Part shown: positions 38,308-41,444 of the stretch, piece by piece
Layout: the number at the start of each line of letters is the position of its first letter
Position numbering within the stretch: the first letter of the stretch is position 1
Assembly (NCBI RefSeq): GCF_030545015.1
Contig: NZ_CP120653.1
Location: 248,001-312,000, forward strand
Direction of reading: 5' to 3'
DNA length: 64,000 bases
DNA from: Myroides sp. JBRI-B21084
GTDB taxonomy: Bacteria; Bacteroidota; Bacteroidia; Flavobacteriales; Flavobacteriaceae
The notes under the pieces: generated by a model
What the model saw: the letters and a program-made list of their open reading frames with translations, nothing else
The model's database searches: none
Told to the model about the DNA's origin: nothing
Program-made: the position numbers and the translations under genes

Positions 38308-38315
38308 TATATTTG
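38308..38315 (+). promoter_or_regulatory. TATATTTG -7 box of the envelope redox operon
   Basis: A perfect TAnnTTTG box lies 26 bases before the start of the DUF5777 gene. No TTG box is found at the usual distance, so an activator may be needed. Confidence 0.45.
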
Positions 38316-38341: not shown

Positions 38342-39187
38342 ATGATAAAGAAAATTACCCTACTGTTTTTATTATTTTCAGTAAATGCATTTGCCCAAGA
38401 TGATGATTTGTTGAAGGAAATAGATACTTTAAGCATAACCGAAGAATTTGCACCACCGGCATTTAAAGCGCTTCAGGTTGTTACAGCGCAATCTACAAAA
38501 TTAGCAGCTAAAGGAGATTTGTATTTTCTTGTTTCTCACCGTTTTGGTGATTTAAGTAACGGTTTTGATAACTTTTTTGGATTGGATGATGCATCAACAA
38601 AAATTGGATTTATTTATGGAGTTTCAGATAATCTAAACCTTGGTTTAGGTCGTGAAACATTTATGAAAACATACGATGCTAATTTAAAATACAGAATTTT
38701 TAGTCAAACTAATAAATTTCCGGTAGAAGTGGTAGGATACCATACCGTATCTTTAAACTCAGAATTAAGTAAAGATGATTATCCTAATTTAGAATTTTCA
38801 CATCGTGTGGCATATTTAAGTCAACTTTTAATTTCAAAACGATTCAATGAACGTTTTTCATTGCAATTAACACCATCTTACGTTCACAAAAATTTATACA
38901 TTCCTAATACCGATGAAAAAGATCAAATTTTAACCAGTTTAAGCGGCAGATACAAATTAAGTAGAAGAGTGTCATTAAATGGTGAGTATTTTGTGAATTT
39001 TGCAGATTCGGATGTTTATAGAAATCCATTTTCTTTAGGTGTTGATATTGAAACAGGCGGACACGTTTTTCAATTATTATTATCTAATTCTCAAGTTAAT
39101 TCAGATATAGGTTATCTTACAAATGCTGCAGGAAATTGGGAAAAAGGAATCATATATTTTGGTTTTAATTTGTACAGAGTGTTTTAA
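38342..39187 (+). CDS. DUF5777 outer-membrane beta-barrel protein
   Basis: A signal peptide (cut after VNAFAQ) precedes an acidic stretch (DDDLLKEIDTL) and a barrel domain of the DUF5777 type with SHRFGDLSNGFDNFFGLDDA and GRYKLSRRVSLNGEY, ending YFGFNLYRVF with a terminal aromatic. It probably sits in the outer membrane. It is the first gene of a tight operon with a c-type cytochrome, YceI, an exported ankyrin protein and a DOMON protein, so it could be the pore for electron or haem transfer. That role is inference. Confidence 0.85.
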   Translation: MIKKITLLFLLFSVNAFAQDDDLLKEIDTLSITEEFAPPAFKALQVVTAQSTKLAAKGDLYFLVSHRFGDLSNGFDNFFGLDDASTKIGFIYGVSDNLNLGLGRETFMKTYDANLKYRIFSQTNKFPVEVVGYHTVSLNSELSKDDYPNLEFSHRVAYLSQLLISKRFNERFSLQLTPSYVHKNLYIPNTDEKDQILTSLSGRYKLSRRVSLNGEYFVNFADSDVYRNPFSLGVDIETGGHVFQLLLSNSQVNSDIGYLTNAAGNWEKGIIYFGFNLYRVF

Positions 39188-39210
39188 TCGACTTAAAAAA
39201 ATAACTTCAA

Positions 39211-39564
39211 ATGAAAAAAAGTTTCTTATTTATATTAATCGTTTCAGCTGCATTTATTTCGTGTGAAAGTGCTACTTACGAAGAAATTTCAGAAAATAGC
39301 CCCATTACGGAAAAGGTTACATACAACAAACATGTAAAAAAAATAATGGAAGCAAAATGTACTTCATGTCATTCATCAAACGGAAGCGCATCTTCGTTAC
39401 CATTAACAAACTATACACAAGTAAAACAGGTAGTAAACGGTATAATTAATCGCATACAACGTCCAGCGGGTGATCCTTTACGTATGCCACAAGGTGGATC
39501 AATGGCAACTAGCGATATCAATACCATTATAAAGTGGCAACAAGATGGACTTTTAGAAAATTAA
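39211..39564 (+). CDS. c-type cytochrome lipoprotein, single haem
   Basis: The 117-residue protein has a lipobox ending at Cys18 (AAFISC), a haem-binding site Cys50-Thr-Ser-Cys53-His54 and a probable axial Met92 in RMPQGG. A final helix reads DINTIIKWQQDGLLEN, as in planctomycete-type and other small cytochrome c domains. It would be exported, attached to haem by the Ccm or Ccs system, and held to a membrane by lipid. It starts 23 bases after the DUF5777 gene and stops three bases before yceI. Confidence 0.9.
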   Translation: MKKSFLFILIVSAAFISCESATYEEISENSPITEKVTYNKHVKKIMEAKCTSCHSSNGSASSLPLTNYTQVKQVVNGIINRIQRPAGDPLRMPQGGSMATSDINTIIKWQQDGLLEN

Positions 39565-39567
39565 GCT

Positions 39568-40110
39568 ATGAAAAAAATTGTTATACTCATTTTTTTACTT
39601 GGTACTAATGTAATTAGTGCTCAAAAGTATATAACTCAAAAAGGAAAAGTTGCTTTTGAAGCTTCGGTTCCACTTTTTGAAGATGTAAATGCTGTAGATT
39701 CAAATAATGTGACAGTTTTTGATGTTAGTTCTGGTAATATTGCATCGGTATCAAATGTTAAAAATTTTAGATTCACAGTAAAATTAATGGAAGAACATTT
39801 TAACGAAAGTTATGCCGAAACTGCAAAATATCCTAAAACTACGTTTAAAGGAAAAATTATTGGTTTTAAACTATCTGATTTATCATCAACACCCAAAAAA
39901 TATACCATAGATGGAACACTAAATTTTCACGGAGTAGATCGCGCAGTAAAATCTATTGCAACAATTGAAATGAAAGATGGTAAAATTAATATTGTAGGTG
40001 CATTTAAAGCAAAACCAGCCGACTATAAAGTAACTATTCCTAAAATGGTTACAAAAAAAATTGCCGAAGAAGTAAATGTTTCATATAATTTTAATTTAAC
40101 AAAACAATAA
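39568..40110 (+). CDS. YceI-family periplasmic protein
   Basis: A signal peptide (cut after NVISAQ) precedes a YceI lipocalin-like domain: GKVAFEASVPLFEDVNAVDS, FNESYAETAKYPKTTFKGKI, LNFHGVDRAVKS and a YNFNL end. Some YceI proteins bind long isoprenoid chains such as quinones. Next to cytochrome genes it may carry quinone-like electron carriers in the periplasm. Three bases after the cytochrome gene and one base before the ankyrin gene. Confidence 0.9.
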   Translation: MKKIVILIFLLGTNVISAQKYITQKGKVAFEASVPLFEDVNAVDSNNVTVFDVSSGNIASVSNVKNFRFTVKLMEEHFNESYAETAKYPKTTFKGKIIGFKLSDLSSTPKKYTIDGTLNFHGVDRAVKSIATIEMKDGKINIVGAFKAKPADYKVTIPKMVTKKIAEEVNVSYNFNLTKQ

Positions 40111-40111
40111 A

Positions 40112-40636
40112 ATGAAGTTTTTTGTATTGATATGCAGTTTTTTTGTATCGATTGTATCGATGGCTCAAACCGAAGAAAAAAATATTTTTGATATTGCCCG
40201 AAATGGTTCTTTAACAGAGTTGAATGCGTTGGTAGAAAAAAATCCGGAGGTAATTAATGAAATTGATAAAAGAGGTTTTTCGCCTTTAATTATAGCTTGC
40301 TACAGAGGTAATGTATCAGTAGCTGAATATTTAATTGCAAACGTTAAAAATATTAATTATGCAAGTGCACAAGGTACTGCTTTAGCAGGTTTGGTAATGC
40401 ATTTTAATAAGGATTTAGCAGAAAAACTTCTGAAAAATGGTGCAAATCCTAATATTGTTGATTTAAATGGCGAAACTGCTTTGTTTTTAGCTGTAAAAAG
40501 CAATAATGTTGAATTTGTTGAACTACTATTGGCACATAATGCAGATACATCTATAAAAGATAAACAACAAAAAACAGTGTTTGAGTATGCTGTAGAATCA
40601 AACAATCAAACATTAATAAATTTATTAAAAAAATAA
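40112..40636 (+). CDS. Exported ankyrin-repeat protein
   Basis: A signal peptide (cut after VSMAQ) is followed by about four ankyrin repeats: GFSPLIIACYRGNVSVAEYL, then GTALAGLVMHFNKDLAEKLL, GETALFLAVKSNNVEFVELL, and KTVFEYAVESNNQTLINLL. It is a 174-residue periplasmic scaffold. Exported ankyrin proteins in other bacteria assist haem enzymes such as catalase, which fits its place between cytochrome, YceI and DOMON genes; this is inference. Confidence 0.88.
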   Translation: MKFFVLICSFFVSIVSMAQTEEKNIFDIARNGSLTELNALVEKNPEVINEIDKRGFSPLIIACYRGNVSVAEYLIANVKNINYASAQGTALAGLVMHFNKDLAEKLLKNGANPNIVDLNGETALFLAVKSNNVEFVELLLAHNADTSIKDKQQKTVFEYAVESNNQTLINLLKK

Positions 40637-40640
40637 TCGA

Positions 40641-41387
40641 ATGAAGAAAATTTTTACTTTAACTGCTTTATTAGGTGTGTTTGTTGCAAATGCACAATTT
40701 ACATCTAATACTTTAACTTTAGGGTCAACAGGTATGACAGCTAAACTAGAAACCACTACAACAATGGCAACTTTAACCTTAACAGGTAGTAGCACATCGT
40801 ATTTAGCAATTGGTTTTAATGCACAAGGCTCGGGTATGGCTAATGGTTCTGATGCTTTTATTTACACAAATAATAACAATGTAGATTATACTTTTACAGG
40901 TGTTGGTAACACGCCAACTTTAGATGCTGCACAAAATTGGACTATTTCTAGTAATACAGTGGCATCGGGTATAAGAACTATTGTTGCAACAAGAGCATTA
41001 GTTGGTGGCACAGGCGATTTTACAATTCCTAACGCTGCTGGTAACATTGCTATTAGTTATGCAAAAGGAAGTTCAACTACATTAGCAAACCACAACACAA
41101 GTCGTGGGTATAGTACTTTTGTTATGACGGCAGCTGCATCAAACGATACTTTTGAAACAAACAAAGTTAAATTGTATCCAAACCCAACTACCGATATAGT
41201 TAATTTTTCATGTGAAGTTGCAATTAAAAATGTAACTATTTACGATATTACTGGTAAAAAAGTACAATCGGTAGCTTTAAATAATGCAAATTCTATGAAT
41301 ATATCTACTTTGTCAAATGGTGCTTATATTTTTGAAATTGAATTAAATAATAATGTTAAACATTACGAAAAAGTTATAAAAGAATAA
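40641..41387 (+). CDS. DOMON-domain haem protein with type IX sorting domain
   Basis: A signal peptide (cut after VANAQ) is followed by a DOMON domain (about residues 20-160): SYLAIGFNAQGSGMANGSDA, then NHNTSRGYSTF. Met66 and His151 stand at the places of the haem ligands in DOMON b-type cytochromes. The C-terminal 75 residues are a type IX sorting domain (KLYPNPTTDIVNFS, YDITGKKVQ). The protein would be secreted or fixed on the cell surface. It ends the operon, four bases after the ankyrin gene. Confidence 0.85.
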   Translation: MKKIFTLTALLGVFVANAQFTSNTLTLGSTGMTAKLETTTTMATLTLTGSSTSYLAIGFNAQGSGMANGSDAFIYTNNNNVDYTFTGVGNTPTLDAAQNWTISSNTVASGIRTIVATRALVGGTGDFTIPNAAGNIAISYAKGSSTTLANHNTSRGYSTFVMTAAASNDTFETNKVKLYPNPTTDIVNFSCEVAIKNVTIYDITGKKVQSVALNNANSMNISTLSNGAYIFEIELNNNVKHYEKVIKE

Positions 41388-41412: not shown

Positions 41413-41444
41413 AAAAGCGATTTAAATTATTTTAAATCGCTTTT
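41413..41444. terminator. Bidirectional terminator between the redox operon and murF
   Basis: A 14-base perfect stem, 41413-41426 with 41431-41444, encloses a TTAT loop and has A and T tracts on both sides. Confidence 0.9.

Follow-up and report, generated by a model that had tools for sequence, protein, structure and literature searches.

What do five exported proteins, encoded one behind the other in the genome of Myroides sp. JBRI-B21084, do together? Their genes lie in a stretch of 64,000 nucleotides (RefSeq assembly GCF_030545015.1, contig NZ_CP120653.1, positions 248,001 to 312,000 of the forward strand; here called the window and numbered from its first letter). They encode an outer-membrane beta-barrel of the DUF5777 family, a c-type cytochrome lipoprotein, a YceI-family protein, an ankyrin-repeat (Ank) protein and a DOMON-type protein with a type IX sorting domain. 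An earlier note on this DNA had proposed an analogue of the porin-cytochrome conduits, in which electrons would leave the periplasmic cytochrome, cross the DUF5777 barrel and reach the DOMON haem at the surface. Comparison with other Bacteroidota leads to a different picture. The operon is a conserved core (DUF5777, a YceI subfamily, a monohaem cytochrome c and usually an OB-fold protein) with Ank and DOMON as an optional add-on, and the probable role of this conserved envelope gene set is electron handling at the outer membrane. The genes and the residues discussed below are:

38342..39187, forward strand: DUF5777 outer-membrane beta-barrel, core gene (Pfam; 12 strands in the model)
39211..39564, forward strand: predicted monohaem c-type cytochrome lipoprotein, core gene (CTSCH, lipobox Cys, Met92)
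39358..39372, forward strand: CTSCH, predicted haem attachment motif (C50, C53, H54; C, C and H kept in 70 of 70 relatives)
39484..39486, forward strand: Met92, likely axial haem ligand of the cytochrome (70 of 70 relatives)
39568..40110, forward strand: exported YceI-family protein of the DUF5777-linked subfamily, core gene (Pfam; genome-wide linkage)
40112..40636, forward strand: exported ankyrin-repeat protein, DOMON partner (Pfam; adjacency to DOMON genes)
40641..41387, forward strand: secreted DOMON-type protein with a C-terminal type IX sorting domain (Pfam, TIGR04183, relatives)
40836..40838, forward strand: Met66 of the DOMON protein, predicted haem b ligand (30 of 30)
41091..41093, forward strand: His151 of the DOMON protein, predicted haem b ligand (30 of 30)

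Calling of open reading frames (ORFs) in the window placed all five on the same strand with gaps of 23, 3, 1 and 4 bases, in the order and with the export that the earlier note had given them. Its family names also held, that of the DOMON protein indirectly, through some of its relatives. The barrel protein matches PF19089 (DUF5777) over the full profile length (E 1.3e-86, 290.3 bits against a cut-off of 23.1), the YceI protein matches PF04264 (E 7.4e-11, 43.1 bits against 23.7), and the ankyrin protein was recognised by Pfam at E 1.6e-22.

PF19089 was found in 71 of 149 genomes of a family sample (101 places), in 111 of 296 genomes of a phylum sample and in 136 of 199 genomes of a genus sample. 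A set of 150 loci was assembled: 60 stretches from the family, 40 from the phylum outside the family, 40 from the genus, nine named relatives (Flavobacteriaceae) and the window. The stretches were hand-picked, mostly among the higher entries of the score lists, and are not a random sample. ORF calling used frame length counted from the first ATG, and the ORFs were then grouped with an all-against-all BLAST. Counts refer to the 147 loci with a DUF5777-cluster ORF of more than 200 residues, and "near" in them means within five ORFs of DUF5777; at L021, L049 and L084, which were left out, the profile placed DUF5777 and the ORF caller gave none. In loci with a pair of DUF5777 genes the second was disregarded.

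Near DUF5777, YceI was present in 138 of the 147 loci, the cytochrome cluster in 125 and the OB-fold gene in 99. The linkage of YceI is specific to one subfamily. Across the 149 family genomes the YceI profile gave 85 places at E<=1e-42, and 82 of these lay at most 5 kb from DUF5777; the remaining three were farther off in DUF5777-bearing genomes, and none occurred in a DUF5777-free genome. Among weaker YceI places 1 of 58 was near DUF5777, and 83 of the 101 DUF5777 places had YceI within 5 kb. DUF5777 and its dedicated YceI subfamily thus form a tightly linked gene pair. The OB-fold gene corresponds to PF12869 (42.8 bits against 23.5 in the one OB protein scanned), and a profile of the OB proteins of these gene cassettes found no match in the 64-kb window. 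The only PF12869 match over the cut-off in the genome, C1:1424803, is a longer protein (219-aa frame; cassette OB profile 5e-14) and was not counted as the cassette's OB gene. The complete order DUF5777, cytochrome, YceI, Ank, DOMON, which the earlier note had asked to be looked for in other Bacteroidota, was found in 9 of the 150 loci, the window and eight others; being conserved in other genomes, the gene set is not a chance assembly.

The position beside DUF5777 and YceI is very likely that of an electron carrier, judging from the proteins that occupy it. The cytochrome of the window has one CTSCH motif, a lipobox cysteine and Met92, and stays below the Pfam cut-offs (Haem_bd 25.6 against 27 bits, and no cytochrome model over its cut-off). 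Among its relatives in the first clustering C18, C50, C53, H54, M92 and W109 are invariant (70/70), and one of these, L065, has CX4CH spacing; the larger cytochrome cluster (n=135) divides into 122 CX2CH and 13 CX4CH members. With a C..CH-type motif and a distal ligand, the lipoprotein has the sequence features of a c-type cytochrome. A Rieske-cluster gene (PF00355, 27.1 bits against 20.3 in the one scanned) occurs in eight loci, six of which are without a member of the cytochrome cluster. Of these six, L075 has another haem-motif ORF; in the other five no frame of 80-450 residues with CX2-4CH was seen within 4 kb. That an unrelated Rieske protein replaces the cytochrome is the strongest sign that the slot moves electrons. 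When the kind of carrier (cytochrome, Rieske or other) is mapped on a FastTree tree of the 147 DUF5777 proteins, it changes at least 13 times, against a mean of 21.5 and a minimum of 19 in shuffles.

The last two genes of the operon behave differently from the core. The DOMON-type protein bears a type IX sorting domain (Pfam 1.3e-12; TIGR04183 1.5e-13, 50.5 bits against 23) and the genome has SprA_N, so by sequence it would be a cargo of the type IX secretion system (T9SS). Pfam DOMON (PF03351) gave no match for the window protein itself; 7 of the 12 members of the DOMON alignment A3 match the profile, the best at 5.4e-12, and against the cut-off of 32.7 the full-length relatives in L055 and L080 reached 30.5 and 24.2 bits and those in L070 and L111 gave none. 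DOMON haem b proteins use a methionine and a histidine as axial ligands, as in cellobiose dehydrogenase. Met66 and His151, which the earlier note had named as the ligands, are invariant in 30 of 30 DOMON relatives including that of the window, and haem binding is predicted on that basis. An AF2 model built from five sequences was poor (pLDDT 51.9) and was not used for a fold search, and a 12-sequence DOMON profile run against PDB sequences found nothing credible (best E 0.33). A similarity to WD-40 chains in a single-sequence PDB search (designed and natural chains, E down to 4.7e-11 over the whole sequence) was set aside as chance among repeats, no stretch passing alone. DOMON genes occur in 30 of the 150 loci in nine arrangements; three of the 30 (L123, L138, L140) are long proteins with further repeats that were added by eye. 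Ank stands directly before DOMON in 26 of 27 core-linked cases, the 27th being a second Ank in L031, and in six of seven loci that have DOMON and lack the core. Because it precedes DOMON with and without the core, Ank is best regarded as the partner of DOMON rather than as a core gene.

Other surface proteins take the same place. A T9SS cupredoxin-cluster gene (PF00127, 35.8 bits against 21.2 in the one scanned) is near DUF5777 in 15 of the 147 loci, and the copper ligand pattern is missing in 3 of 16 cluster members. A DUF2271-like gene occurs in seven, with ApbE beside six (5.6e-83 in the one scanned; PF10029, DUF2271, stays under its cut-off in L005, 21.5 against 27.3), a Lipoprotein_15 gene in eight (one scanned) and a lamin-tail-like gene in five (PF00932 under the cut-off). 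None of the five named partner types is present in 83 of the 147 core loci. T9SS-exported DOMON with Ank, cupredoxin, and DUF2271 with ApbE are therefore optional, exchangeable neighbours of the core. The partner label of the 63 loci with exactly one partner needs at least 17 changes on the tree, where 100 shuffles averaged 30.5 and never went below 25; partners are swapped often, yet inherited more than chance would give. The redox theme of the earlier note is upheld by these exchanges, since Rieske can replace the cytochrome, and cupredoxin or DUF2271 with ApbE can replace DOMON.

In L005, L134, L139, L146, L147 and L149 the DUF2271-like T9SS protein is followed by an opposite-strand ApbE beside the core. 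Four of these six DUF2271-like copies contain a DxxTGAT flavinylation motif, which suggests a covalent flavoprotein at the surface. Small DAISGAT lipoproteins upstream of the cassette in L062 (10707-11084) and L064 (3824-4207), next to a lipoprotein of ~385 aa, are possibly ApbE targets; that of L062 had no Pfam match over the cut-off. In the same-genus loci L111-L118, L130-L132, L143 and L148, genes for a two-CxxCH lipoprotein and an FG-GAP-like secreted protein (named by eye) adjoin the cassette on the opposite strand. A second cassette type with Lipoprotein_15-cluster genes is seen in L012, L015, L016, L044 and L058, several beside a membrane-bound LytTR regulator (one of each scanned). A globin-like reading of a 197-aa lipoprotein in L121 and its relatives was dropped for want of Pfam support.

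The surface genes also occur without the core. For 26 places of the DOMON and cupredoxin profiles far from DUF5777, 20 loci were fetched (L154-L173; 13 cupredoxin and 7 DOMON, one DOMON locus holding two far places). Cluster profiles for DUF5777, YceI and the cytochrome found none of them in these 20 loci (10.5-11.5 kb each), and an OB gene was present in one. Nineteen of the 20 stand in the carB-rmuC interval (gene families checked at a single locus), where cupredoxin and Ank with DOMON are alternatives at one chromosomal site. Because core-less loci occupy this site, the surface proteins can stand there alone. A rival reading sees no common pathway: the surface genes and the core would only use one insertion site, carB-rmuC in many genomes of the family, and would have come to be neighbours in this genome; carB and/or rmuC also fall within the fetched stretch in 28 of the 60 family-sample cassette loci. 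Against this, the window has neither gene near, the 40 same-genus loci include 13 with rmuC and 1 with carB, and Ank with DOMON nevertheless accompanies the core in nine arrangements, the partner labels moreover tracking the DUF5777 tree. We consider a mere sharing of the site unlikely.

Can the barrel be the pore of a conduit? MtrCAB and MtoAB barrels have 26 strands and Cyc2 has 16 (PMC8406198). Like the cassette, these systems combine a barrel and a cytochrome at the outer membrane; they use an inserted multihaem or a fused cytochrome, whereas the cassette encodes a separate monohaem lipoprotein, with a single CxxCH, and a barrel predicted to have 12 strands (pLDDT 66.8, pTM 0.68). The DUF5777 model aligns best with 12-stranded channels (top VIA-align row 4rl8, 11% identity, tied with other 12-stranded folds) and looks too narrow for an electron pipe. 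A conduit of the MtrCAB or Cyc2 kind would account for a barrel, a cytochrome and a T9SS surface haem-type protein sharing one operon, for the recurrence of their order in eight other loci and for the frequent cofactor sites of the surface partners. The 12-strand barrel, the single haem and the surface genes, which can persist without the core (DOMON or cupredoxin) and are missing, in all five named types, from more than half of the cores, make such a conduit very unlikely, and the central proposal of the earlier note is not supported.

A barrel, lipocalin and carrier acting together on an isoprenoid quinone or a lipid, with optional surface redox proteins, is the reading that we tentatively favour. 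YceI proteins are an isoprenoid- or quinone-binding lipocalin family (PMC9113575, PMC8981238), and the statement of the earlier note that some bind isoprenoid quinones is borne out by these papers for other YceI proteins. The 12-stranded DUF5777 barrel would be a narrow, perhaps laterally gated channel for a hydrophobic compound, either isoprenoid quinone or oxidised lipid, and not an electron pipe; YceI would bind this compound in the periplasm, and the cytochrome or Rieske protein would give single electrons to it or take them from it. In loci that have it, the DOMON protein with its predicted haem b may extend the reach to the cell surface, and Ank may help to load its haem. This reading is favoured because YceI-redox precedents, the suggested transport by COG4313 barrels and the tight DUF5777-YceI pairing combine. 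COG4313 barrels, to which 4rl8 belongs, are implicated in the passage of hydrophobic molecules (PMC4493636); their 12-stranded fold is common with the DUF5777 model, and no sequence-family relation is shown.

Several observations weigh against this reading. No YceI lies within 5 kb of 18 of the 101 DUF5777 places, and 16 of the 147 loci lack both the clustered cytochrome and a Rieske gene near DUF5777. In three of these 16 (L038, L046, L058) a second copy of DUF5777 has a cytochrome next to it, and five (L079, L083, L088, L093, L124) have another CX2-4CH frame nearby; L054, L059, L072, L077, L086, L092, L095 and L098, of which L077 and L086 are close to a contig end, have no such frame within 4 kb. 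In the 149 family genomes 12 of 20 DOMON places and 19 of 37 cupredoxin places are within 5 kb of DUF5777. The lamin-tail-like and CBM96-type partner genes have no obvious redox cofactor, and the flavinylation motif is not significantly enriched near the core overall (9 ORFs of 553 against 3 of 579, p 0.08). Confidence in the barrel model is only moderate, and a common fold shows no function.

YceI lipocalins with cytochrome partners are known in envelope redox protection, and BcnA/LcoA (PMC9113575) is a close precedent. There too a YceI lipocalin of the envelope has a genetic tie to a haem protein with a redox role, in that case a cytochrome b561; the cassette has a cytochrome c or Rieske protein as partner and, in addition, the DUF5777 barrel, the OB-fold protein and T9SS cargo. 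BcnA and LcoA are proposed to quench lipid peroxyl radicals, and mutants of either show more lipid peroxidation. In a narrower form of the favoured reading, YceI with the cytochrome or Rieske protein would be an antioxidant unit that quenches such radicals, DUF5777 passing oxidised lipids or quinone. Ank relatives serve catalases: in Ank-KatE and AnkB-KatB (PMC7567364) an ankyrin gene adjoins that of an exported haem-type protein, as in the window, where the partner is the DOMON protein instead of a catalase. Among the clustered neighbours, for which no b561 profile search was run, a cytochrome b561 was not noticed, and we regard this narrower form as doubtful. Cbp2D and Cbp2E of Cellvibrio japonicus (YceI-like X158; Cbp2D also with cytochrome c domains; PMC8981238, PMC12542752) likewise combine a YceI-like domain with monohaem cytochrome c, and the combination is suspected of feeding an extracellular redox enzyme, lytic polysaccharide monooxygenase; they are secreted CBM proteins tied to that enzyme and cellulose, whereas the cassette consists of separate envelope proteins with a barrel. 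A wider scheme joins the DUF5777-YceI core to an exchangeable periplasmic carrier (cytochrome c or Rieske) and exchangeable T9SS surface carriers (haem b DOMON, type-1 copper, covalent flavin), a modular Bacteroidota system that would link an isoprenoid quinone pool at the outer membrane to the surface with no multihaem conduit; we hold it to be doubtful.

Two possible signals flank the operon:

38308..38315, forward strand: possible Bacteroidota -7 box, TATATTTG (weak)
41413..41444, forward strand: terminator-like hairpin of 14 pairs, separating the operon from the next gene, which is convergent

The -7 box of the earlier note is present as TATATTTG, which we take to match the consensus; the call is weak, as TANNTTTG turns up 1.3 times per kb across the window and no TTG was found 17-21 bases upstream. 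The hairpin likewise exists, and the strength claimed for it was not borne out (one 14-pair hairpin against a shuffle mean of 1.3), so that it is a plausible terminator by its position between convergent genes alone. The gene yaaA (peroxide stress protein, PF03883; 37370-38134) lies on the same strand, 207 bases upstream of the operon.

The cassette is apparently undescribed. DUF5777 was named in no paper found by our literature search, and a search on YceI, cytochrome c, operon and outer membrane returned nothing evidently about the cassette. Nor, by titles and abstract starts, did one on DOMON and type IX secretion turn up anything evidently about it; one on extracellular electron transfer, Flavobacterium, type IX and cytochrome gave nothing related by title. 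DUF2271 and ApbE are treated in PMC8238504 and PMC11334425, in whose main texts the words YceI and porin do not occur. A YceI gene is listed among those changed under iron limitation in Riemerella (PMC5429918).

Carried by many Bacteroidota, DUF5777 is a common family that is unnamed in the literature found. Should the core act on quinone or oxidised lipid at the outer membrane, a common barrel would gain a testable function and the YceI lipocalins a second cytochrome-type partner. If the surface modules are wired to the core, they may provide a monohaem route to the cell surface, and to our knowledge Bacteroidota have not been credited with such routes.

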